This document shows positions 3,035-24,034 of a DNA stretch of 24,093 nt, piece by piece. Source of the DNA: a virus; IMG/VR virus record IMGVR_UViG_3300044732_001176, positions 1 through 24,093 of that record. The stretch is one strand, 5' to 3'. The translations under genes were made by a program, and so were the position numbers. How positions within the stretch are numbered: position 1 is the first letter of the stretch; every line of letters starts with the position of its first letter. The notes below the pieces were generated by a model. The model saw only the letters and a list, made by a program, of their open reading frames with translations. It was not told the origin of the DNA and made no database searches.

Positions 3035-3346
3035 TCCACATCCCCCAGCCCCACCTAGCCCGCCCTAACCCGGCGGGCTTTTTCTTTGCCCTGCCACAGT
3101 CCGCCAGAGACACCGCACAGCGCCTGTCCGGCGTTGAACCGCATAGGCAGGCCCGGACGCCGCGAACGGCGTTCAGCGGGCTTTAAAATCGGCCATGCCG
3201 ACAGAGCATGTCTGGCAACCCGGCTGTTGCAGCGCCTGTTGACGCGACAGACAGAGCCTATCTGCTGTGTCACGGGCCAAGAGCCTGTTTTTGCTGCATA
3301 AAAAGGCGTTTTGAAACAGAAAAACGGCGTTTGTCACAGCGCCTGT
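2977..3346 (+). repeat. Four dispersed copies of CAGCGCCTGT
   Basis: Exact copies begin at 2977, 3118, 3230 and 3337, spaced 141, 112 and 107 bp apart, all in the same orientation. Two copies are preceded by A, giving ACAG-CGC-CTGT, which has internal dyad symmetry. The last copy is inside the left arm of the large inverted repeat. The clustering resembles iterons or repeated operator sites. Confidence 0.55.
3057..3087 (+). terminator. Rho-independent terminator of the 2004-3034 cluster
   Basis: The stem AGCCCGCC (3057-3064) pairs with GGCGGGCT (3072-3079) around a 7-nt loop and runs into TTTTTCTTT. It stands 22 nt after the stop of the last gene in the cluster. It separates these genes from the region that follows. 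Confidence 0.85.
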
Positions 3347-3638
3347 TTCACTCCAAGCCATTGAAAAATCACTTCTTTCTTTATTATTATTATAAATGAA
3401 ACAAGAAAAATATTAATAGCCCCTCTGGAACTTAGTGCAGTAGTTGACCAATACAGTGGGGGGGTATGAAATCCCCTTTAGGGTTATATATCTCGAAATC
3501 CTGTTTCATTTTCATTTTTGCCCCGATTTCGTTAATGTTATCAGTATGTTGGAGTGAAACAGCCAACCGTCACAGGGCCGTTTCACCCGTTTCAAAACGC
3601 CGTTTTATCGTTTGTTATCAGGCGCTTGGCCCGTGACA
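3268..3638. repeat. Large interrupted inverted repeat (arms of about 88 bp)
   Basis: The left arm 3268-3355 and right arm 3550-3638 are inverted copies. Exact matching blocks are TGTCACGGGCCAAG / CTTGGCCCGTGACA at the outer ends, GGCGTTTTGAAAC / GTTTCAAAACGCC in the middle and CTGTTTCACTCCA / TGGAGTGAAACAG at the inner ends. Inside the 194-bp AT-rich core, AAATGAAACA (3394-3403) and TGTTTCATTT (3502-3511) continue the symmetry around the same centre (about 3453). GTTTCA or its complement occurs at least eight times in the region. Confidence 0.85.
3444..3472 (+). promoter_or_regulatory. Candidate rightward promoter at the centre of the inverted repeat
   Basis: TTGACC (3444-3449) and TGAAAT (3467-3472) are spaced 17 bp apart, matching 5 of 6 and 4 of 6 bases of the sigma-70 consensus. 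A leftward -10-like TATAAT also exists on the minus strand at 3389-3394 but lacks a convincing -35. If the rightward promoter is used, its transcript would have a leader of about 350 nt including the right arm before the first gene at 3837. Confidence 0.3.
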
Positions 3639-3836
3639 TTTTGTTTCATGAGCATTATCAGGGACTTAGGCCGATTGCGCGGGCGTTTGAGCGTGATCTG
3701 GGGCTATTTTCCGATCGATCCGATTATGGATGAAAGTTAATCCGACTTTGGTGCTGTTTGCTGTTGTGAGAAATGTCAGACGGAATTATGTGTTGCGTGA
3801 CGGTTCTGACGGGCCGTTTGATGAGGGAGACGTTAT

Positions 3837-4040
3837 ATGTCTGTTGGATTGTTCGTCGTTTACGAGGCATCCGGGGTTGCGCGGCGCACCCCTCGCGGCA
3901 CGTTTGAGACGTTCGAGGCCGCCTGCGATTTCGTGCAGGCGCTGCACCCGATCTGTTTTGAGGTGGACGTTGATCATCCCGGCTGCGCGGATGCGTTCCT
4001 GCCGGGTGGTGTGATCTATGCGATTGAGGCGCGGGCATGA
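3837..4040 (+). CDS. Hypothetical protein, 67 aa
   Basis: First gene of the long accessory cluster. It encodes 67 residues starting MSVGLFVVYEASGVARR, with GTFETFEAACDFVQAL after it, giving a strand-strand-helix-like pattern. The ATG has a GAGGGAGA ribosome-binding site, and the stop overlaps the next start (ATGA). A longer reading frame from 3730 covers the same DNA in another frame but has poor composition at its end, so I prefer this frame. Function unknown. Confidence 0.65.
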   Translation: MSVGLFVVYEASGVARRTPRGTFETFEAACDFVQALHPICFEVDVDHPGCADAFLPGGVIYAIEARA

Positions 4041-6355: not shown

Positions 6356-6715
6356 ATGGGCTATCGAAGCGATGTGGTTTTTGCGTTCTATCCGAGCGCG
6401 ACGGGTGACGGGCAGGCGGTTTCGTCTTGGCTGATGCAGCACTGGCCGCAGGCGTGGTGCGAGATCGATGAGGGCGAGGAGATGGTGCTTGTCAGGTATT
6501 CGGATGTGAAATGGTATGATGATTACGAATTCGTCAGGACGGCGCGGGCTGCGGCTCTGGCGTTCGAGCAGGCGTTCGAGGCGGACGAGGATCGGACGGC
6601 GCGGGCGCACTGGGAGATGGCGCGGATAGGCGAGGATGAAGCTGACATTGAGCGCGATGGTTCGCCGTTCATGGATTACCGGCTATCGATCCGCCGCGAC
6701 ATTGAAGTGATGTGA
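6356..6715 (+). CDS. Conserved phage protein of the 'MGYRSDVVFA' type, 119 aa
   Basis: A 119-residue protein starting MGYRSDVVFAFYP, a beginning I recognise from many small phage and bacterial proteins of unknown function. The centre holds DEGEEMVLVRYSDVKWYDDY, and the C-terminal third is a charged helix. A strong GAGGGGAAATGAG ribosome-binding region precedes the ATG and follows directly on the tandem repeat. The MGYRS family's typical pattern of a strand, a variable part and a W-Y motif (VKWY) is present. The biochemical role is unknown. Confidence 0.75.
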   Translation: MGYRSDVVFAFYPSATGDGQAVSSWLMQHWPQAWCEIDEGEEMVLVRYSDVKWYDDYEFVRTARAAALAFEQAFEADEDRTARAHWEMARIGEDEADIERDGSPFMDYRLSIRRDIEVM

Positions 6716-6725
6716 GGAAGCGGTG

Positions 6726-7193
6726 ATGTCGGCTAGGCGTGTTGTTATCCATGACCGTAGGTTCATGTGGTGGGACGGGCAGAAGCTGACGCCTGTGCGC
6801 CTGTCTGAGCGGGCGCGGTCGCACCTGTCACAGGTGAATTCGCTCGTGGCAAAGGGCCACCCTGTGCCGCATGACTTCGCGACATTCGCGGGGCGCAACA
6901 ACGACGATCTGGCGGCGCATTATGGCGTTGACGTGCGGAAGGTCAGGGAATGGCGCCACAGCACCGGGCTGCACTATCGGTCTGCCACATCGCGGACGCT
7001 GCCGGTTGAGGGCCAATATGATGAGACCCTGACACTGGCTGAGCTTGGGCGCGCCTGTGGTTACGGCTGCGGATCGCGGTTCAGCATGGCACTACGGAAG
7101 CACCGGCCAGAGATACACGCGCGGGCTGTGGCGAATGGCCGAGCGCGGAGTATGGCGCATTTGAAGCAGAGGAAGAAGGAGAAGGGGGAATGA
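6726..7193 (+). CDS. Helix-turn-helix-like DNA-binding protein
   Basis: A 155-residue basic protein (an in-frame GTG at 6723 would add one residue; GAGG lies upstream). Two segments look like helix-turn-helix units: DDLAAHYGVDVRKVREWRHS in the middle and LAELGRACGYGCGSRFSMAL later, the first followed by a basic TGLHYR. The N-terminus contains FMWWDGQKLTPVRLSERARSH, and the C-terminus is a Lys/Arg tail (LKQRKKEKGE). It probably binds DNA, perhaps regulating early phage genes. The target is unknown. Its stop overlaps the next start (ATGA). Confidence 0.65.
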   Translation: MSARRVVIHDRRFMWWDGQKLTPVRLSERARSHLSQVNSLVAKGHPVPHDFATFAGRNNDDLAAHYGVDVRKVREWRHSTGLHYRSATSRTLPVEGQYDETLTLAELGRACGYGCGSRFSMALRKHRPEIHARAVANGRARSMAHLKQRKKEKGE

Positions 7194-8983: not shown

Positions 8984-9325
8984 ATGGCAAAGAAATATGC
9001 GAACCGCCGCGCCGACGACGGGAGCATTCTGCCCTTTCAGGTGCTGGAGCCTGTCAGTCCGACCGAGATGATCATTTGCGAGATGGATTGCACCCTGCGT
9101 AAAGGCTGGAAGCCGGTCATGCTGTTGGGTAACTGCACGAACGAGCAGGATCAGCAGTGGGACATCGAGGTCGATCCAGAGGCGCTGATGTTTCGCATCC
9201 GGATGATGAAGTCTGGGGAGTGGAAGGACGCGCAGGGTCACACCTATGTGTTGTCGGAAATCCCTGAGCGTTTCCATAGGTTTAGCTTTGTCAGCGGCAT
9301 TTATGATGCTGACGTTGAGGAATAA
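8984..9325 (+). CDS. Hypothetical protein, 113 aa
   Basis: Encodes 113 residues starting MAKKYANRRADDGS, with a strand-rich pattern: PTEMIICEMDCTL, VMLLGNCTNE, DPEALMFRIRMM and TYVLSEIPERF. This suggests a compact beta-rich domain. The ribosome-binding site is weak. It is the last gene of the accessory cluster; a 90-bp gap with a promoter-like sequence and a small dyad follows. No family recognised. Confidence 0.65.
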   Translation: MAKKYANRRADDGSILPFQVLEPVSPTEMIICEMDCTLRKGWKPVMLLGNCTNEQDQQWDIEVDPEALMFRIRMMKSGEWKDAQGHTYVLSEIPERFHRFSFVSGIYDADVEE

Positions 9326-9339
9326 TTTTGCTGATGGGC

Positions 9340-9369
9340 TTGTCAGTTTAATTTGAAACTGTGTAGCAT
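9340..9369 (+). promoter_or_regulatory. Candidate promoter with overlapping dyad, upstream of the primase genes
   Basis: TTGTCA (9340-9345) and TAGCAT (9364-9369) with an 18-bp spacer fit a sigma-70-type promoter (5 of 6 and 4 of 6). The spacer contains the inverted repeat CAGTTT (9344-9349) / AAACTG (9356-9361), an arrangement typical of repressor-controlled promoters. The dyad includes TTTGAAAC, a sequence also found in the arms of the large inverted repeat at 3268-3638. Confidence 0.45.
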
Positions 9370-9415
9370 TGGCACCCCGCGTTTGACGGCGCGGATACAG
9401 AGGGATAAAATCGAA

Positions 9416-9808
9416 ATGACCGGGAACTGTGGCGATGTCCAAGGCTTGCCTAAAAACCACAGGAGCGGCGGGAGGCGTGCTCCCCCCTCTGCACCCGCTG
9501 CATCCGTCAAGTCCCGGTCATACTCAATTCGTGACATCAAGGATCGCCTGAGCCCGTCTCACATCGAGGCGCTGTGCCGAGACTGGTTGCCGGGTGGCAA
9601 GCGGCAGGGCGGTTGGTATCTGGCATGTGCGCCGTGGCGTGACGACCGGAACCCCTCGCTGGGCGTATCGTTCAGCACCGGGCGCTGGAAGGACTTCGCG
9701 ACGGGCGAGAAGGGCGACATGATTGACCTGTCCATGAAACTGTTTGGCGACAGCCTGCAGGAAACGATTGCCGGATTCGCCGAGATGCTGGGCCTGACCC
9801 ATGCGTAA
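9416..9808 (+). CDS. CHC2-like primase N-terminal protein with degenerate zinc site
   Basis: A 130-residue protein. Residues 67-107 match the layout of the DnaG-type zinc-binding (CHC2) domain: WYLACAPWRDDRNPSLGVS followed by GRWKDFATGEKGDMIDL. Of the four usual ligands only the first cysteine (C71) is kept; the others appear to be R, D and T. The domain would therefore fold without zinc, as I recall for related 'W.DFATGEKGD' proteins of phages and plasmids. It overlaps the TOPRIM-helicase gene by 8 nt and likely works with it to recognise template DNA. ATG 9416 follows AGAGGGA; a TTG at 9353 is a weaker alternative. Confidence 0.8.
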   Translation: MTGNCGDVQGLPKNHRSGGRRAPPSAPAASVKSRSYSIRDIKDRLSPSHIEALCRDWLPGGKRQGGWYLACAPWRDDRNPSLGVSFSTGRWKDFATGEKGDMIDLSMKLFGDSLQETIAGFAEMLGLTHA

Positions 9809-12203
9809 GGTAGACCTGAAGGCGCTGGCGATTGCTGAGGACATCACGGCGAAGGCGCAGATTGTCACGCCGATGCCTGAGCCTGTGGTGATCCCTGATT
9901 CGCTGCGGAAGTCACTGGGCCCGGAGCCTGATGCGATGTGGATTTACCGCATGGCTGACGGCGCGGCGTTCGGGGCGGTGGCGCGGTGGAATCCGCCGGG
10001 TGCGCGCAAGGAGATCAGGCCGATTGTCTGGGATGGGAAGAAGTTTCTCACATCCGGGTTCGGCAAGGGACGCCCGCTGTATAACGGCGACCTGCTGGCG
10101 GCATCGCCGACTGCGCCTGTCCTGATCGTCGAGGGCGAGAAGGCCGCCGATGGTGCAGCGCAATATGTGCCTGAGGGCTGGGTCATTACGACGTGGCAGG
10201 GCGGGGCGAAGGCTGTCGATCAGACGGACTGGAGCCTGCTTGATGGGCATAGCTGCGTGGTGTGGCCGGACAATGACACGCCGGGGATCGAGGCGGCGCT
10301 GGAGATTCAGAAGATACTGGGCCAGCACCGTGTGCCGGTGTCGATTGTCACGCTGAGTGTGGTGTTCCCGGACGGCTGGGATTTGGCCGATGCGCTGCCG
10401 CTGAAGGTGAAGGCGCAGCAGATCACGGACATCTTGCGCCGGGAACTGAAGCGCGCGGCGGTGCCAGAGATGGTTGTCGATGTCACGCCGCTGGAGGGGG
10501 CCGACCCTGACGAGGAAGCGGCGCGTGAGTGGCGACCACTGGGGCATGACCACAACAAATATATGTTGATGCTGCAGAACCAGCAGCAGGTGATCGTGTT
10601 CGATCCTGACCGCCTGATGAGCCAGAAGGGGTGCATGAACGTCTATGGTGACGTCAATCACTGGGGTCGGCTGCAGGGCAAAGAAGACGGCAAGGGTGTG
10701 GACTGGGTTACATCTGGCGTGATGCTGATGGAGCAGTGCCACAAGGCCGGGGTGTATGATCCGACCAAGCTGCGCGGGCGCGGCATCTGGCTTGACGAAA
10801 GGGATGGGCCGAGGGCGATCCTCAATTCTGGGAACAAGCTCTTGGTCAGCCGCCCTGAAGCGCCGACGCGCGAGGTGTCTCACGTTCGCCTGAAGAGCGG
10901 TTGGATTTACGAGAAGGGCCGCGACCTGATCCTGAACGTCGATAACTTCGAGACGATGGCGAGCGACGACGATGGCCGCATGATCCGCGAACTGTGCGGC
11001 AAGGTGCGGTGGGATGCGCCGATCTATGGCGATCTGCTGGCTGGCTGGATTGCGACGGCGGTGGTGTGTGGCGGGCTGGACTGGCGCACCCACGCATGGG
11101 TCACGGGGAACCAAGGGTCAGGAAAGTCCACGGTCGTGAACACGGTGGCAGGCGCATGCCTTGGCGATCTGGCGATCTATCCGCTGGGCGCCACGACCGA
11201 AGCCGGCATCCGGCAGGTGGTGCAGAACGACGCCATGCCGGTTGTGTTCGACGAGGCGGAGAGCGACGAGAAAGAGAACAAGATGGCGGCTGCCGCGCGG
11301 CGCAAGGCCGTGATGGATCTGATGCGACAGGCGTCGAGCGAAGGGCGTGGGCGCATCCTGAAGGGGTCAGCGAACCACCAAGCGCGGGCGTTCACGATGC
11401 GGTCGTCGTTCCTGATGTCATCGATTGGCGTGGGCCTGAAGGAAGCCGCCGATCTGACGCGCACGGCGGTGCTGACGATCAAGCCGCTGGATTCGTTCAC
11501 GCTGCAGGAGCGGCGCAAGAAGGAGGAGGAGTTCAAGGACTTCGTGGCGCTGGCCTCTTCGATCCCGAGGGACATGCCGCAGCGCCTGCTGGGTCGTCAA
11601 CTGCACAACCTGTTCACGCTGCGCCACAACATCTTGGTCTTCAAGGAAACGATTGCCACCGTTCTAGCCAATCGCCGTATCGGCGACCAGTTGGGGACGC
11701 TGATGGCTGGATGCTACAGCCTCTATTCGACGAAGCGTTTGGACATGAAGCAGTGCGAGAAGTATCTGAACACGGTGAACCTCGACGAGTTCCTGCAGGT
11801 GAAGGCAGAGCGCGAAGATCGGGTGCTGCTCGATCACATCGTCCAGAGCGCGATCCGCGTTGAGACCCTGCACGGCGTGCAAGACCGGACGATTGGTGAG
11901 CTTCTGGTGATCTGCTTCACCCGGCAAGAGAACGCAGACGTGGGCCTGAAGATTGCGGACGAGTCACTGGCGCGCGTCGGCTTGAAGGTTGAGATCGAGC
12001 ATGGGCTGGCGGTCGGAGTATGGATTGGTCAGAGCATCGCTGCCCTGAACAAGATCATGCAGACGTCGGTCTATTACGAAGGCTGGTCGGGCGTGTTGCT
12101 GCGCCACCCGAGTGCGCGGAAGAGCGACAACTCGCTTCGCTTCAAGGGGTCGATGTCGCGTGGGATTTTTCTACCAAAGCATGAGTGGCCAGTAGGATTA
12201 TGA
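9801..12203 (+). CDS. TOPRIM primase-helicase (bifunctional replication protein)
   Basis: An 800-residue replication protein. A TOPRIM domain covers about residues 40-215, with VLIVEGEKAADG (catalytic-type E111) and VVWPDNDTPG (D157, D159). After a linker there is a P-loop ATPase: GNQGSGKST (436-444) as Walker A and VVFDEAE (481-487) as Walker B, followed by conserved-looking segments around SSEGRGRILKGSA and FLMSSIGVG. The order primase then helicase is that of phage primase-helicases. With the preceding CHC2-like protein it would form a two-part priming and unwinding system. The C-terminal about 200 residues carry no motif I can name. Confidence 0.9.
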   Translation: MRKVDLKALAIAEDITAKAQIVTPMPEPVVIPDSLRKSLGPEPDAMWIYRMADGAAFGAVARWNPPGARKEIRPIVWDGKKFLTSGFGKGRPLYNGDLLAASPTAPVLIVEGEKAADGAAQYVPEGWVITTWQGGAKAVDQTDWSLLDGHSCVVWPDNDTPGIEAALEIQKILGQHRVPVSIVTLSVVFPDGWDLADALPLKVKAQQITDILRRELKRAAVPEMVVDVTPLEGADPDEEAAREWRPLGHDHNKYMLMLQNQQQVIVFDPDRLMSQKGCMNVYGDVNHWGRLQGKEDGKGVDWVTSGVMLMEQCHKAGVYDPTKLRGRGIWLDERDGPRAILNSGNKLLVSRPEAPTREVSHVRLKSGWIYEKGRDLILNVDNFETMASDDDGRMIRELCGKVRWDAPIYGDLLAGWIATAVVCGGLDWRTHAWVTGNQGSGKSTVVNTVAGACLGDLAIYPLGATTEAGIRQVVQNDAMPVVFDEAESDEKENKMAAAARRKAVMDLMRQASSEGRGRILKGSANHQARAFTMRSSFLMSSIGVGLKEAADLTRTAVLTIKPLDSFTLQERRKKEEEFKDFVALASSIPRDMPQRLLGRQLHNLFTLRHNILVFKETIATVLANRRIGDQLGTLMAGCYSLYSTKRLDMKQCEKYLNTVNLDEFLQVKAEREDRVLLDHIVQSAIRVETLHGVQDRTIGELLVICFTRQENADVGLKIADESLARVGLKVEIEHGLAVGVWIGQSIAALNKIMQTSVYYEGWSGVLLRHPSARKSDNSLRFKGSMSRGIFLPKHEWPVGL

Positions 12204-12373
12204 GACTGACGAAGAGATCGAAGGGCTACGAGCTTGCGCTCCAGACAGTGCGTGGATGGTCTGATGCAACACTGATGGAACGTGAGCCGCGCGAGTTGAC
12301 ATACACGTTTGGTGTTAGCGTAGCTGAAGCAAATGTGATATTTAAGGACGAGCGGCATCGCCGTGACTTGTAA
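12200..12373 (+). CDS. Hypothetical basic protein, 57 aa
   Basis: A 57-residue basic protein that starts in an ATGA overlap with the primase-helicase stop. It contains RLTKRSKGYELALQTVRGWS and a helix-turn-helix-like end, LTYTFGVSVAEANVIFKDE. It may be a small DNA-binding protein, but this is weak. The coding sequence includes a promoter-like TTGACA at 12296-12301. Confidence 0.55.
   Translation: MRLTKRSKGYELALQTVRGWSDATLMEREPRELTYTFGVSVAEANVIFKDERHRRDL
12296..12326 (+). promoter_or_regulatory. Possible internal promoter
   Basis: TTGACA (12296-12301), with a -10-like TAGCTG at 12321-12326 after a 19-bp spacer, stands about 70 nt before the next gene. The first eight bases, TTGACATA, are identical to the promoter at 15579. 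The spacing is longer than ideal and the -10 poor. Confidence 0.25.
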
Positions 12374-12623: not shown

Positions 12624-12644
12624 GCCGAGAAACAGGAGAGTATC

Positions 12645-12821
12645 ATGAAGAAGTTGATCATCGCTGCCGTGATTGCAGTGACTGCCGCCACCCCGGCGCT
12701 GGCTCTGTCGAGCTACCTCGTTGCGGAATGGTATGCCAACGGCAACCACTTCTGCCGCTATGACAACGGCACCGTGCTGAACGTGGGCTATCGCATCTGC
12801 CCGCTGAAGATCGAAGCCTGA
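12645..12821 (+). CDS. Small secreted (periplasmic) protein, 58 aa
   Basis: The 58-residue product begins with a classical Sec signal peptide: MKK, a hydrophobic core (LIIAAVIAVTAATPALA) and a likely cleavage after ALA at residue 20. The mature part of about 38 residues has two cysteines (HFCRYDNG and YRICPLK) that could form a disulphide. AGGAGAG stands 9 nt before the ATG. Export to the periplasm suggests a role in the envelope, such as exclusion of other phages or interaction with host surface, but there is no direct evidence. It is followed by a small membrane protein. Confidence 0.7.
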   Translation: MKKLIIAAVIAVTAATPALALSSYLVAEWYANGNHFCRYDNGTVLNVGYRICPLKIEA

Positions 12822-12823
12822 AG

Positions 12824-12949
12824 ATGGGGGGTCTAACCCTGATGACCGTCATGGTGGCGACGTTCGCACTGGCGTTCTACCTGATCGTTCGCAACAAAGC
12901 GACTGAGCAGGAAACGAACGCCATGCTTCGCGAAGACCTGTGGTCATGA
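12824..12949 (+). CDS. Small membrane protein, 41 aa
   Basis: A 41-residue peptide with one N-terminal hydrophobic helix (LTLMTVMVATFALAFYLIV) followed by a charged tail (RNKATEQETNAMLREDLWS), probably inner-membrane with a cytosolic C-terminus. An in-frame ATG at 12842 is preceded by a G6 run and could be the true start (35 residues). The gene stands 2 nt after the secreted protein gene and overlaps the next gene (ATGA). Role unknown; topology resembles small phage membrane accessory proteins. Confidence 0.55.
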   Translation: MGGLTLMTVMVATFALAFYLIVRNKATEQETNAMLREDLWS

Positions 12950-13482
12950 GTAGTTCCAGCGGATCTTTGCCGCGTCACTACTACGTCTGGGTGGACTCCT
13001 CCTTCCTGCGCGAACAGGGCACCGGGTATGAACCGGCAGTATGGTTCGGCCTGCACAGCCATCCGGGCCGCGCATGGGGCTGTCACGTCATGCTGGAGTG
13101 CGGCGCGTTCTATCGTGGTTTGCCGCCGCACTCCATCGCGTTCAGCCCCGAGCCGGCCTGCACTGATTGGACACTGCCGCAGGCGCAGGTGTGGGACTGC
13201 TACGGCAGGGACTTCTCGCTTTTGGTGTATGACTATCTGGACGGGCTACGGGTGCGGGTGAAGAGCGGGGAGGCCGGTGAGTATCTGTTCACGGCGGTGC
13301 CGCAGGGCGATGCGTTCACGCACGACCCGTCACAGGGCAAGGAGTTTATGTTCATCCGCACAACGGGCGACAGGCTGACCATCGTGCCAACGAACAACCT
13401 GTTGTTCGAGGAGCGGTCATTCACCGTTGACAAGGGCTGGCCACGCCTCAAGAAATCCACAGAAGTGTGGTCATGCGAATGA
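12946..13482 (+). CDS. Conserved phage protein, 178 aa ('YYVWVDSSFLREQG' type)
   Basis: Encodes 178 residues starting MSSSSGSLPRHYYVWVDSS. The blocks SFLREQGTGYEPAVWFGL, HPGRAWGCHVMLECGA, YRGLPPHSIAF and a later TIVPTNNLLFEE match a phage family I remember in replication regions. Its function is not known to me. Aromatic and strand-rich, with no catalytic motif. ATG 12946 overlaps the previous stop; a GTG at 12940 is an alternative. The 129 bp after it lead to the helicase gene and contain a strong hairpin. Confidence 0.75.
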   Translation: MSSSSGSLPRHYYVWVDSSFLREQGTGYEPAVWFGLHSHPGRAWGCHVMLECGAFYRGLPPHSIAFSPEPACTDWTLPQAQVWDCYGRDFSLLVYDYLDGLRVRVKSGEAGEYLFTAVPQGDAFTHDPSQGKEFMFIRTTGDRLTIVPTNNLLFEERSFTVDKGWPRLKKSTEVWSCE

Positions 13483-18101: not shown

Positions 18102-18129
18102 AGCAGGCGGCCTTAACGGGTCGCCTGCT
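18102..18129. terminator. Convergent stem-loop, putative bidirectional terminator
   Basis: AGCAGGCG (18102-18109) and CGCCTGCT (18122-18129) form an eight-base-pair stem around a 12-nt loop that contains the stop codon of the leftward giant gene. It lies 7 nt after the stop of the rightward SSB-like gene. No long U-run follows on either side, so termination efficiency is uncertain. Confidence 0.45.
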
Positions 18130-21100
18130 CCACCTGATTATAGACCCGGTTGAAGCGCACGAACTCACCGTCGATCCGCTCCCGAAGAACCTCAAGCCGC
18201 TCCGCCTTCGTGCCCTCATCTATGTCCAGATTTTGAATGCGCTTGCGCTCTTCGTTCAGCTTTTTAACCGCCGCGCGCGTCGAAGTCAGGGCCGACTGAA
18301 TCCGCGGGCTGGTTTCCGTCGGAAACTTTTCAATCAGCGCCCGACGCTCAGCCCCGGTCGAATCCTTCAACTGCTGGTTCACAACGCGCGCCTTCTCTTC
18401 GCGCTCGTAATACTCACCGACGTTCCTGCCCTTGCCCGGCTGACCGACAAGGCGCCGGACCACAGGGGCCGCCACAGCGTCGCCTTCGCTTCCCGTCCGG
18501 TAGAGAGACTTGGCGAGGTTGGTCACGCCACCAAGGGAGAACTCTAGGAGATACTCGAAGCTCTCGGCGGGCACGTTTAGGTTGCCCTTAACCTTGCCCT
18601 CACCGCCGGTTATGTCATTCAAGAACTGAGAGAATTCCTTGTAGCCTTCGGGCGTGTTGTATCGAGCCACGGAGGCGTATGACTGCCCCTTGTCGAACGG
18701 CTCATTGTAGATCGGCTTGCCCATGAAGTTCTCATTCAAGGCGAGTTCCGTCAGCGGTTTGAACACGGTCGGCGTTGCCGCCCGGGCAACGGAGCTTGTG
18801 GCATTGCCGGCACTGAACTGCACTGGAGAGAAGTTCCCGAGCGCAGCGGTCACGATATCGATCCCAGCGGCGCCAAGGTCGTCACCGCGGCGGGCCGCGT
18901 CCATTGTCCGGGTGGCCAGATACGGGAAGAAGCCGAAGCCATAGGGCATCGGGATCTTCACGTAGGTCTTACCGTCGACGGGGTTCATAATGATAAGGTT
19001 GCGCTCTTTCTCGTAGTCCGGGATCTTATCCCAGAAGAGTTTGCCGTCATCGTCTTCGTCGGACATCGCCGCGTTGGCAGCCGCGAGTGTGGCAGCCGTG
19101 GCCATCATACCAAGCAGCGCCGCCTGAGTGCTCGACAGCTTGCCGGTCTTGAACGGGTTGTTCGACAGCGCCCGCGCCGTGCGGACACTACCCTGAACCC
19201 CTGCATTGAAGAAGGCGTAAAGCGCATTAAGCAGGGCGCCAGCCTCGCCGCGCCGGTTGAAATCCACGGTCGCCTCACGGGAAAGCATGGCCGCCTGTTC
19301 GCGGCTCATGTTGAGTTCGAGCGCGGCACGGTAAGCGGCGAAGCGGATACCGTTCTCGAAGATGGCGTTGGTGTTTTCCAGAGCCCCGACCATAGCGCGG
19401 AAGCTCTTACTCGTGGGCTTCCACAGAGCGTCAATGGTCTGCTTAGCGCCCTTGGCATCCTTGATGTCCTTCAGCCTTTCGTCGAGCGTCTTCAGATCAT
19501 CCTGAATGCGGGCGGCAGCCTCTTGCGGAGTCTCACGCTGTGCCCACGACACTGATCCACCGTCCAGTTTGAACTGCTCATACTGCTTGCGCAGGTTGGG
19601 ATCCCCGCCTGCGCGGCCATACTCGAAAGCCGCGATAGTGCGGAACGCCTTCCTGTCCCTCGCGAACTTTCTGAAAGCCTTGGACAGCCCCGGAGCATCA
19701 GCTGCAAGGTTCAGCGCCGCAGACTGCAGATCGCGGAAGATGTTAGGCACAAAGAAGTCCGGGTTCGCCGTGGTGAACGAGCGCGACAGCAGGCGCGTCA
19801 CCTTGTTTGAGAACTCTAGGAACGCATTCATCTGCGTCGGGTTCAGGTTCTTCGCAGCCTTCGCAAGCAGGGGATCGTTGATACGCACATAGAACGTATC
19901 GCCGCCGCGCTTCACGATCATGAAGTTCGGATCGAAGGGCGATGGACGCTGGGGGTTCCCGTTCTTATCGCGCGGAGGATTGCGGTCACTGAAGACGCGC
20001 CATTCATTGGACGGATTGCCGATGAAGAAATCCATCATCTTCTGGCCGACGCGATTGCGCTCGCCGCGAATGATGCGAGCGCCGACGTCAGAGACGAACG
20101 TGCCATACGGGGAGAAGGGCAAAGTCTTGCGACCGCGACGCTGACGCCACTCGTTCTTGGTGATGGAGAAGCCAGCGCCGCCGGACATCATCTGCTCATA
20201 AGCATCCCCCTGATCGTCCATCAAAGCGAAGTCGGCGTCAGAGAGGGATTGCCCCGGTTTGGTGGCACCCTTTACCGGAACATAATGAGGGATTGCCTTG
20301 AACATTTCGTCGGCAATCTTGCGCGACTTCACGCCGCGAGCAACGTCGTTGTCCAACGTCCACTTCACGGAGTCCCGATGCACCTTGGCAATGTCTTTCC
20401 AAGCCTGCCCCTTGGTTCCGTTCTCCAACTGATCCGTTTCTTCAAAGGCATCCTTGTTGGAAATGCCAGACGCGGACAGCAGCGGCGAGCCCGTCTTTTG
20501 ATATTCAGCGAGGATGGCCGCATCAATCGCCGGGTCAGGGTGTGACCAGCGCGGCTGATCCGGGGTCCAGTCCCGCTCACGCTGGTTCATGTCGAAGTTT
20601 GGATTCGTGCCATTGACCTTGACCATGAGGGTCGGGTCGCCGTCCTTCTTCCTGACAAGACGACTGATTTCCCGCATCTCAAAGTCGGCGTTTATTTCCG
20701 GAGCCGCCTTGGAGTAGAGATACAGATCGATGTCGTTCATCCCGAAGCCGGCCTCGCGGGCGATCTCCTTGATCTTCTTACCGAAGTCCCGCTCGAACTT
20801 TTGCATCAGTTCGCCGGCACGGCTGTCGAACTTACGTGCCGCCTCGTAGAAACCCTCAAAGCCAGCGGCCAGTTGGCCAAGGCTCTGCACAACGCGCAGG
20901 CGCTCAAAGCGGTCAACCAGCTTGCGAGAGTAGCGTTGAGCGCGCGTTTCTTTTGGCAGCACGACGCCGGGCTGCGGCGCTGATGGAGGCTGCTGCGGCG
21001 GAGGCGGAGGCGTTGGGGTTTTTGGCGGCGGGGGCGGCGCGGGCGGAGGCGTCGGAGGTTTTGGCGCAGGGGGCTGTTGCGGCAGCGGAGGCGAGGGAGG

Positions 21101-24034
21101 CGCCGGGGGCTGCTGCGGAGGTGTTGGCGGTGCGGGCGGAGGCGTCGGGGGCTGCTGCGGAGGGGGCGTTCCAACACCAACACCGGGCGCCCCAAGGACG
21201 CGCGCCGCACCAGTGGTCACATCGGCAACGTCTTGCTGACCTTCAGGAATAACCCTGTCGGAAATTTCAATCAGTCGAGCCAGCGCATTCTGGTCCTTGG
21301 GCCCAACACCGAGCAGCTTGCCGATGTAGCGCACAAAGTCGGTGAACGCATTACCCGTCTTGGTCGGGATGGTCTTCAGATAGTTCTGGAAGTTGCTATC
21401 AGTCAGGCCCCATGCGAGAATCTCGTTGGGGTCTTGACGATAAATCCTGTACTTCTTACTCCATCCGAGCGTTCCTGCTTTCTCGTCTTCACGCATTCTC
21501 TTTGCGATTACTTTAGACAGAGATTTTAAATCTTCAACCGCCTTGCTTATATTGGAATCAGGCGGAAGCCTATCCTGATACGTGATGCCAAGAGCGGTCA
21601 CAGCATGAATAAGTTCATGCGCCAGAAACCGCTCAGAGACACCGGGGTTCTTAAAATCCATACCACCAACAACGACACTCATAGATGTGTTCGATGGACT
21701 CCATGCAGCTACGCCGCTCCAAGTTGGATTAAGATAGACTCCGGGAACACCCTCCTTGTTCTTAGTCGCAACGCCAATGCCGAGCCGTATCCCGGCCTTC
21801 TCGAACTCATCCAAAATGTTTGCAACGCGCGGCATGATGGTGCGAGTGGTGTCGAGGACCGCAGTCTTACCCAATTGGCGAGCCACCTGCGGCATCGTCT
21901 TGCCGCCGATCATCTTCTGAATTTTGGCAGTCGCAGTCTCTGCAGCGGCAAACTGCTCAGGCGTAATCGGCCCGACGTCATCAATCGGAGTGGCGGATAT
22001 AGCCCCACTCGGAGGTGTTATATTAATTGGACCGGACGGCGTCTCGACAGACGAAGGCGCAACGGCAGCGCGCGCGGCAGGCGCAGATACAACCGGAATA
22101 GATTTGCCCTGAAAAAACGCCTCAGTGAAGTTATCCGACGACGCGCGCCCGCCTTCGCTGACGAGGCTCGAACCAAAATCAAGAATCTTTCCGTCATTCA
22201 AAGATCTTGCCCGCTGGCCACTGCTACCAAAGACATGAACTGGAACGGGTTGATCGCCATTGAGCTCCCGAATCACCATCATGCGATGGCGACCGTCGTG
22301 ACCGCTGACCTTGCCCGTCTCAAAATCTACATTTAAGAATGGGGAGCCTACAGGTTTCCCTGAAGAGATCTCCTTGGTGAGATAATCAAGGCTACTCTGC
22401 TTCGGCGCCTCCAGATCGGCGGCAAGTTCAAGAAACTTGGACGGCCTCATCATCGCTGTGAACCCTCTGTAGTCCACATTCTGATTTAAAGGCACCTGAC
22501 CAATGCCGGATTCCTGATCGAACGTAACAACGCCAACCTGCGAACGCTTCTCTGTGTTATCGGGAGCCGGCGCAGCGGGAACCACAGGTGCGGGCTCAGT
22601 CTCCGCCGCCCGCGCAGATTCGCCACCCTGACGTCGAGCAAACTCAGCCTCGATCTCAGGCCCAAAGTTTGCCGCATACTGCTGCATCTCAAGATCGCCG
22701 GGCGTGTCACCGCGACCTTCGCCAGCAAGATAACGCTCAACGTAAGACTGAGGCGTCAACCCGGCAGGCGTTTCAACCGGCGGCGTAGGCGTTCCCCGCG
22801 TCGCATCCCACTCCTCACGGGGGACGTACCGAATGCTGCCATCCGGGCTTTCAATGATTACCAGATCATCTTCAATGATGACGGTATCTTCAGGGCCTGC
22901 GATAACAGGGGTGGGGCTGGGGCCAGCCGTAGGCTCAGTAGGAGCGCCGAAAGGCGTAACCGGGACGCCGGGCTCAGGCTCAGGCTCTCCAGTCGGCGGC
23001 GGCGGCTCTGCTCCCGGCTCTGCTTCCGGCCCACGCAGGCCGCTAATACCACCAGCCCCGCCGCCCATCGTACCGCCAAGGATCAGACCAGCAGCCGCGC
23101 GACCACCGAGACCCTCCGTCAGAGCGACGTTCGGATCGATGGCCTGAGCGCCAACATTCTCAGCAACGCCCTGACCAGTTTCCTGAACCAGTTCGGTGCC
23201 GCCTTCACGGATAGCGCCCTCAGCACCGCCGCGAACAACGCCACGGCGCAGGCCGCCTGTCAGCAGCGCGGCTTCAAGACCAAGCGGGCCAGTGGCGGCT
23301 GCAATCGGAGCGGCGATGGCGGCAGCGCGGCGGGCTGCGGAAACAGCGGCAGCCTCAATAGCCTCTTCCGGCGTTGCGCCAGCGGCAATCGCCTCGCGAT
23401 AAGCAGTGGACCGCGCGACAGCCTCCGGGGGCATCTGCTTCACACGATCATAGGTGGTCTGCGCCGCGTCGCCACCAACGATGGCAGCTTCGCCAGTGGC
23501 GGCGCCCGCCAGAGCGCCACGCTTTGCTGCCTGCTGGCCAATCAGACGCCCAGCCAGAGCGCGACCAGCGAGACCGGCGCCGCCCGTACCAATCATAGCC
23601 GGCACCGTCTGAGCAATGCCAGCGGCCAGCGACAGGGGATCGGTGAGCAGTTCTTTGGCCTGTTGCCCGAAGGCCGCAAGCTGACCTTCCTTCTCGGCCT
23701 CTGCCACGCGCTCTGCCTGCTGACGCTGGCGCTCACGGAATGCTTCCGTCTGGAGCTCTTCGCCGAACTCCTCAACGGCTTTGCCGGCGCGCGTGGAGAT
23801 GTTATCCATGTCGCCGGTAGCGAGCCCGTAAAGGACACCCGGAAGGCCAATGACTTGGCTACCGACGCCGCGAACGGCAGCGCCACCTACATCACGGAGG
23901 AAAGAGGTTTCAGCTTTCGGAATGCTCGCGGCATTTGCCTGCACGTATGCGATGGCGTCCTGTTGGGTTGCCCCTTCAGGTGCGTTCACCTCATACATTG
24001 TTCCATCTGGGGATTTAACGCGGAACCTAGGCAT
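18113..24034 (-). CDS. Giant polyvalent virion protein with ParB-like, HExxH and LPD-like regions
   Basis: A 1,973-residue protein of the phage polyvalent or internal-virion type. N-terminus: PDGTMYEVNAPEGATQQDAI (9-28), a short domain common on large phage proteins, then Ala/Gly-rich segments (about 130-330) that could enter membranes. Around 515-610: a ParB-like stretch with GHDGRHR (578-584). At 806-810: HELIH, a zinc metallopeptidase motif, with DPNEILAW (868-875) as a possible third-ligand region. At 957-1021: a proline-rich linker. The rest is helical, including NPDFFVPNIFRD (1424-1435), reminiscent of LPD38-type regions, and a hydrophobic helix near 1637-1657. It is probably packaged and ejected with the DNA, acting early in the new host. 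The start ATG has only a weak AGGG site. Confidence 0.85.
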   Translation of the reverse strand: MPRFRVKSPDGTMYEVNAPEGATQQDAIAYVQANAASIPKAETSFLRDVGGAAVRGVGSQVIGLPGVLYGLATGDMDNISTRAGKAVEEFGEELQTEAFRERQRQQAERVAEAEKEGQLAAFGQQAKELLTDPLSLAAGIAQTVPAMIGTGGAGLAGRALAGRLIGQQAAKRGALAGAATGEAAIVGGDAAQTTYDRVKQMPPEAVARSTAYREAIAAGATPEEAIEAAAVSAARRAAAIAAPIAAATGPLGLEAALLTGGLRRGVVRGGAEGAIREGGTELVQETGQGVAENVGAQAIDPNVALTEGLGGRAAAGLILGGTMGGGAGGISGLRGPEAEPGAEPPPPTGEPEPEPGVPVTPFGAPTEPTAGPSPTPVIAGPEDTVIIEDDLVIIESPDGSIRYVPREEWDATRGTPTPPVETPAGLTPQSYVERYLAGEGRGDTPGDLEMQQYAANFGPEIEAEFARRQGGESARAAETEPAPVVPAAPAPDNTEKRSQVGVVTFDQESGIGQVPLNQNVDYRGFTAMMRPSKFLELAADLEAPKQSSLDYLTKEISSGKPVGSPFLNVDFETGKVSGHDGRHRMMVIRELNGDQPVPVHVFGSSGQRARSLNDGKILDFGSSLVSEGGRASSDNFTEAFFQGKSIPVVSAPAARAAVAPSSVETPSGPINITPPSGAISATPIDDVGPITPEQFAAAETATAKIQKMIGGKTMPQVARQLGKTAVLDTTRTIMPRVANILDEFEKAGIRLGIGVATKNKEGVPGVYLNPTWSGVAAWSPSNTSMSVVVGGMDFKNPGVSERFLAHELIHAVTALGITYQDRLPPDSNISKAVEDLKSLSKVIAKRMREDEKAGTLGWSKKYRIYRQDPNEILAWGLTDSNFQNYLKTIPTKTGNAFTDFVRYIGKLLGVGPKDQNALARLIEISDRVIPEGQQDVADVTTGAARVLGAPGVGVGTPPPQQPPTPPPAPPTPPQQPPAPPSPPLPQQPPAPKPPTPPPAPPPPPKTPTPPPPPQQPPSAPQPGVVLPKETRAQRYSRKLVDRFERLRVVQSLGQLAAGFEGFYEAARKFDSRAGELMQKFERDFGKKIKEIAREAGFGMNDIDLYLYSKAAPEINADFEMREISRLVRKKDGDPTLMVKVNGTNPNFDMNQRERDWTPDQPRWSHPDPAIDAAILAEYQKTGSPLLSASGISNKDAFEETDQLENGTKGQAWKDIAKVHRDSVKWTLDNDVARGVKSRKIADEMFKAIPHYVPVKGATKPGQSLSDADFALMDDQGDAYEQMMSGGAGFSITKNEWRQRRGRKTLPFSPYGTFVSDVGARIIRGERNRVGQKMMDFFIGNPSNEWRVFSDRNPPRDKNGNPQRPSPFDPNFMIVKRGGDTFYVRINDPLLAKAAKNLNPTQMNAFLEFSNKVTRLLSRSFTTANPDFFVPNIFRDLQSAALNLAADAPGLSKAFRKFARDRKAFRTIAAFEYGRAGGDPNLRKQYEQFKLDGGSVSWAQRETPQEAAARIQDDLKTLDERLKDIKDAKGAKQTIDALWKPTSKSFRAMVGALENTNAIFENGIRFAAYRAALELNMSREQAAMLSREATVDFNRRGEAGALLNALYAFFNAGVQGSVRTARALSNNPFKTGKLSSTQAALLGMMATAATLAAANAAMSDEDDDGKLFWDKIPDYEKERNLIIMNPVDGKTYVKIPMPYGFGFFPYLATRTMDAARRGDDLGAAGIDIVTAALGNFSPVQFSAGNATSSVARAATPTVFKPLTELALNENFMGKPIYNEPFDKGQSYASVARYNTPEGYKEFSQFLNDITGGEGKVKGNLNVPAESFEYLLEFSLGGVTNLAKSLYRTGSEGDAVAAPVVRRLVGQPGKGRNVGEYYEREEKARVVNQQLKDSTGAERRALIEKFPTETSPRIQSALTSTRAAVKKLNEERKRIQNLDIDEGTKAERLEVLRERIDGEFVRFNRVYNQVEQATR

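Follow-up and report, generated by a model that had tools for sequence, protein, structure and literature searches.

An inverted repeat in the non-coding DNA of a 24,093-base virus record (IMGVR_UViG_3300044732_001176, hereafter the window, meaning the whole stretch analysed) is very probably the origin at which the phage starts its replication, opened by its own primase-helicase. This reading is drawn from sequence and from structural models, and several lines of evidence converge on it. The repeat consists of mirrored arrays of short sites, conserved among relatives, around a core of near-constant length, and the letters of these sites switch together with the primase-helicase gene. In distant relatives the array stands at the 3' end of the primase gene. 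The top PDB matches of the full protein model are initiator-type helicases, and its C-terminal domain modestly matches the C-terminus of SaPIbov1 Rep. SaPI Rep and P4 alpha offer precedents, both for iterons or origin repeats and for the 3' position. Finally, the cumulative GC skew reaches its minimum at the array in the window and in two large relatives.

The repeat spans 3268-3638. Its arms (3268-3355 and 3550-3638) match at 75% identity over ~90 bp (E = 4e-9 in a gapped self-alignment of the window), and both are present as the initial annotation described them, with exact blocks at outer (TGTCACGGGCCAAG, 3268-3281), middle (GGCGTTTTGAAAC) and inner (TGTTTCACTCCAA) positions. The inner pair that it placed on the same centre, near 3453, is also there and extends over 3394-3406/3499-3511. 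The symmetry had been called non-random: in fact, the left arm scores 61 against the right, where dinucleotide shuffles (n=2000) average 17 and never exceed 30, and no other place in the window scores as high for such arm geometry. That the repeat arose by chance or through faulty assembly has a probability close to nil, given this shuffle test and the synteny kept in independent metagenome contigs; the relatives refute it.

All blocks turn out to be copies of a single short word, TGAAAC, with the variant TGTCAC. TGAAAC occurs 8 times in 383 bp (0.18 expected), and 11 half-sites, or 12 counting CGTCAC at 3568, are packed into 382 bp of non-coding DNA. They are oriented >>><> core <><<<<, with extra copies bordering the core and one just beyond the right arm, at 3643 (Table 1). 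The core had been described as AT-rich, and it is (60% AT vs 40% in the whole window). A weak dyad lies in mid-core (3437-3456 in the window; TGTATTRGTTAACTAATACA in relatives) and is kept at the equivalent position across motif types A and B (L034, L008, L013 and L015). A further unit, GTTGAACCGCATAGGCAGGC, occurs once in the window (3134-3151), and ~4 variant copies of it stand left of the array in L045.

Table 1. Coordinates of the repeat and of associated features in the window, with the half-site words of related arrays.
Feature	Position	Strand	Sequence or remarks
Intrinsic terminator	3057..3079	+	closes upstream mini-operon
Left arm	3268..3350		TGTCAC 3268(+), TGAAAC 3312(+), TGTCAC 3332(+), TGAAAC 3345(-)
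Dyad within left arm	3332-3350		TGTCAC-N7-GTTTCA
Left core-border half-site	3397..3402	+	TGAAAC; preceded by AT tract 3377-3396
Core	3403..3502		~99 bp between innermost half-sites; candidate melting region
Right core-border half-site	3503..3508	-	TGAAAC
Right arm	3555..3648		TGAAAC 3555(+), CGTCAC 3568(+, variant), TGAAAC 3580(-), 3589(-), TGTCAC 3633(-), TGAAAC 3643(-)
CHC2 zinc ribbon protein gene	9353..9808	+	separately encoded primase part; Pfam PF01807
Primase-helicase gene	9801..12203	+	800 aa; TOPRIM-like, AAA+ helicase, predicted winged-helix-like C-terminal domain from ~residue 672
Small protein gene	12185..12373	+	primase-linked, partial co-switch
Type A arrays			TGAAAC; window group, L008, L034
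Type B arrays			TCATAC, with TAAAAC at core borders; L013, L015, L018, L020, L030
Type C arrays			TGTCAC; L021, L023, L024, L080, L084, L085
TGTTAC arrays			TGTTAC; L086, L091, L098

The claim that the region is gene-free and lies beside early genes is borne out. To the left, a rightward mini-operon ends at a terminator; to the right, a rightward early operon, with genes for the primase-helicase, a helicase, an exonuclease and RecT, runs from a first gene near 3837. The leftward terminase genes begin ~1.6 kb left of the repeat. Four functions had been offered for the symmetry: a replication origin, a divergent promoter pair, a cruciform and a structured RNA. The first is strongly supported here. 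A divergent promoter pair is not, as both flanking genes point rightward, with a terminator between them; promoter-like matches in the core are about as frequent as in shuffled sequence.

A change in strand composition had also been noticed at this place, and the cumulative GC skew of the window is indeed lowest at 3425, inside the repeat, in a flat trough. In G001 the minimum (12636) falls beside the array at 12643-12969, in G003 (20010) it falls within the array at 19899-20267, and in G002 the skew is lowest ~2 kb from the array, again in a flat trough. Since GC skew also follows gene direction, and the maximum in the window is not opposite the minimum, we count these values as supporting evidence only.

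The 2 kb around the repeat have no nucleotide match in known phages, and the repeat has no Rfam match at the gathering threshold. A primase profile search of host genome contigs found no relative, so no host could be named. Elsewhere in the window, a Mom-like DNA modification gene (644-1123) is flanked by the gene for the large terminase and the probable gene for the small one. A protein of 1973 aa, encoded at 18113-24034 and probably a large internal virion protein, partially matches the DarB-like antirestriction, virion RNA polymerase and endolysin families.

Relatives were collected by two scans of IMG/VR, which gave 67 loci, and by a third with a primase alignment, which gave 80, partly overlapping. 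The initial annotation held that a functional role would be doubtful if related phages lacked the symmetry; they retain it. An intergenic repeat is syntenic in ~15 distinct related phage sequences, with its centre of symmetry at the equivalent place, and the arm symmetry exceeds the shuffle mean, clearly in the majority of them, weakly in some few. The words themselves differ: types A, B and C carry different letters at equivalent positions in syntenic phages. Distant relatives, whose primases are 33-36% identical, use GTAAC, CTAAC, CTCAC or TGTTTAC. In these the half-site clusters stand mostly at the 3' end of the primase gene, and in 11 of the 12 distant loci tabulated the first half-site lies no more than 18 bp from the end of the primase match. 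The array adjoins the primase gene in 11 distant relatives but not in the window, where it lies 6 kb upstream of the primase-helicase. Adjacency to the initiator gene is the rule for SaPI/P4-type origins without being obligatory, as P4 shows with its distant ori.

The core measures 86-100 bp in 17 of 19 arrays, across 7 motif types. This constancy is weakened, though not explained away, by the choice of half-site words and largest gap once each array had been inspected. The two exceptions are L086, at 149 bp, and L015 (L060 is the identical phage), whose core comes to 98 bp once the TAAAAC pair counts as the border. In every array tabulated the core is enriched in AT. We saw no clear array in the available DNA of L087, L088, L092, L093, L095 and L097; for several relatives the contig stops before the place. 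Among cultured phages, similar clusters occur in Synechococcus S-H1, Pseudomonas ZRG1, Acinetobacter Acjo_20 and MQ-4, and more weakly in PBb002, at the primase gene or up to ~8 kb away; the annotations consulted for them contain no origin.

Other repeats were met along the way. Long direct runs of GCCGCA/ACGCCG are found in the early region of L008 (5716-6053), L013 (4785-5092) and L034 (7060-7431). In Bordetella phage BPP-1 (L140), which belongs to the pRN1-like group, TTTGCCTCG words form a small mirrored repeat at 6608-6706, ~0.5 kb past the 3' end of the primase gene. In type B (L015, L030), an extra dyad that carries the CATAC word, TGATACAGTGTATCA followed by CATACAGG, lies between the array and the first early gene, where it may couple replication and early transcription.

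Which protein would read the half-sites? For each gene, we counted the alignment columns in which types A and B have no residue in common, in 12 phages. This was done for 23 window genes, among them 21 early genes that had sufficient orthologues. A clean separation of A from B is seen in the primase-helicase alone, with 79 such columns, and the true division ranks 1 of 792 splits; 15 of its columns tell apart A, B and C. Much of the A/B difference falls at residues 225-330, a segment that is also variable within type A. The two genes directly downstream of the primase-helicase have 6 and 8 columns (rank 2). The 18 other early genes, including those between the array and the primase, have none. 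The exception is informative precisely because most early genes ignore the A/B division.

The neighbours of the primase-helicase can be set apart from it by way of the distant loci. Neither the small protein gene at 12185-12373 nor the gene at 8984-9325 was found in the distant array-bearing loci, from which the neighbour genes are absent save for one weak match of 12363-12623 in L132; the primase-helicase is thus the sole candidate common to them. The 8984-9325 gene (113 aa, no assigned function) was found in those phages of types A and C that were tested; every type B phage lacks it at that place. As a reader of the half-sites it was rejected, owing to its absence from the distant array-bearing loci. 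We conclude from these sequence comparisons that the primase-helicase is likely the initiator that acts on the array.

The same comparisons bear on two other uses of the array. A packaging site (pac/cos) or a partition site could be imagined, as the terminase genes lie ~1.6 kb off and partition sites can be repeat arrays; we give such a site hardly any credence, for TerS and the part of TerL that was compared have no A/B columns (which also led us to reject the terminase as half-site reader), in distant relatives the array comes after the primase gene, and the window genes that were scanned include no recognisable partition gene. Alternatively, the array might be a set of operators through which a phage regulator controls the early operon, replication beginning elsewhere. 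The array does lie upstream of that operon, and in type B the stretch from the array to the first gene holds an additional site with the identical word; a dual role with an origin is possible. As an explanation in its own right, control by operators is improbable: the motif type is not mirrored in the HTH-like gene at 6723-7193, nor in the other early genes tested, the array of distant relatives stands where the primase gene ends and not ahead of an operon, and the core keeps a near-constant length across many motif types.

The primase-helicase, proposed as the initiator, has a weak TOPRIM-like match and an AAA+ helicase domain, and the CHC2 zinc ribbon gene lies immediately upstream of it. 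An AlphaFold model (mean pLDDT 82) has as its top PDB matches the NrS-1 CTR, SaPIbov1 Rep, SaPI5, the poxvirus D5/E5 proteins and AsfvPrimPol; in Foldseek, the matches to NrS-1, SaPIbov1 Rep, SaPI5 and D5 have probability 1.00 and E values of 2e-7 to 7e-5. On this model the phage encodes a helicase domain of SF3/AAA+ initiator type. Modelled by itself, the C-terminal stretch of 159 residues (pLDDT 89.5) aligns best with residues 452-558 of SaPIbov1 Rep, with a modest Z of 5.2 (rmsd 3.5 over 90 residues), and next with mainly other DNA-binding domains, several of them winged helices. Foldseek found nothing significant in the PDB for this domain alone; in BFVD it has two good matches, both to viral proteins that bear no functional name. 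A sequence search for solved relatives of the primase-helicase gave nothing useful. Membership of the P4 alpha family was rejected by profile comparison, as hhalign aligned the Walker A region only (probability 16%).

Arm pairing reaches ~95% inside the half-sites of types A and C and ~85% in type B, whose sites are degenerate; outside the half-sites it is 0.50-0.67, against 0.58 in shuffled sequence. RNA folding, proposed earlier as a check, gave strong folds in the window (z of -10.8 and -9.8), which any such inverted repeat would give, and weak ones (z of -1.5 to -3) in several of the relatives with a retained array. Concentrated pairing and weak folds in relatives fit protein sites better than a hairpin, and on these grounds a structured RNA or hairpin is unlikely to be the main function. 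Nor is a cruciform or structured RNA needed, complementarity being near-perfect only in the half-sites, whose letters switch with a protein gene. The arms may also extrude. An origin whose paired arms form a hairpin or cruciform that the initiator reads, as proposed for plasmid pRN1 and phage BIP-1, has a published model for a winged-helix primase-helicase (PMC4234260) and the strong window fold in its favour. It is nevertheless highly improbable here, with pairing near shuffle level outside the half-sites, the weak folds just mentioned, and many half-sites that are direct repeats within one arm.

An origin of iterons read by a primase-helicase has close parallels among known systems. In SaPI origins, two repeat sets flank an AT-rich stretch. 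The C-terminal domain of SaPI Rep reads iterons just downstream of rep, and the protein appears to bind as two hexamers (PMC7581432). The window would share with SaPIbov1 and SaPI5 the combination of iterons and a self-loading initiator helicase; in our models the helicase matches SaPI Rep structures and the C-terminal domain does so modestly, and the distant relatives would share the origin 3' of the gene. SaPIs differ in being satellites with a primase of archaeo-eukaryotic type (PMC7581432), whereas we have a phage-like genome and a TOPRIM-like protein, half-site arms that are inverted, and, for the lineage of the window, an array that precedes the gene by 6 kb. P4 alpha joins a TOPRIM primase, a helicase and a winged-helix origin binder, a combination also predicted here; it binds the origin repeats through its winged helix, then unwinds and primes (PMC4234260). 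In P4, crr is located at the 3' terminus of alpha; it contains 8-bp repeats in both orientations, TGTTCACC, with AC near the end as in the half-sites here. However, crr comprises two 120-bp direct repeats, P4 has a separate ori far from alpha, and alpha has no sequence relation to the phage protein beyond the Walker A region.

Two further systems are similar in part. SCCmec Cch2 is a helicase with a C-terminal iteron-binding domain and repeats downstream of its operon (PMC7581432), but it has just three direct AAGTG iterons and a separate primase-polymerase. In pRN1 and Bordetella phage BIP-1, a near twin of BPP-1, a primase-helicase with a C-terminal winged helix has its origin 3' of the gene (PMC4234260). 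Unlike the phages studied here, they have an archaeo-eukaryotic primase, and stem-loop recognition is proposed instead of iterons, for BIP-1 at a stem-loop origin 3' of the primase gene (PMC4234260). In the open-access papers searched, we found no description of the present lineage, of mirrored half-site arms, of a near-constant core or of motif switches linked to a TOPRIM-helicase.

To explain how the array might work, we propose that copies of the primase-helicase would bind the 6-bp half-sites through the winged-helix-like C-terminal domain, ~6 on each side, and assemble into two opposed ring helicases, or hexamers. These rings would melt the AT-rich core of ~99 bp lying between them, after which both strands could be primed and bidirectional forks set out. 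With ~6 sites per side and a meltable core, the anatomy fits a SaPI/P4-like working with two rings face to face, and this way of working is already known from P4 and SaPIs. The co-switching of motif and protein is an indirect sign of a possible pairing between initiator and iterons.

To our knowledge, the replication origins of most environmental phages are unknown. Here an origin could be proposed from the letters of the DNA alone, and its likely initiator named by co-evolution. The identical signature reveals arrays next to the primase-helicase gene, or not far from it, in many other phages, cultured ones included, and motif switches supply natural variants for mapping which protein residues read which bases. 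The near-constant core length leads to a testable prediction on the spacing of two helicases at an origin. We lean, by somewhat more than even chances, towards a widespread and apparently unannotated class of phage origin, in which two mirrored rows of ~6 half-sites flank a ~95 bp core in dozens of dsDNA phages whose initiator is a TOPRIM-helicase, the letters having switched repeatedly together with the initiator. If so, these phages would offer naturally occurring data from which to derive a protein-DNA recognition code and to learn how a pair of helicase rings comes to be placed a fixed distance apart on DNA.
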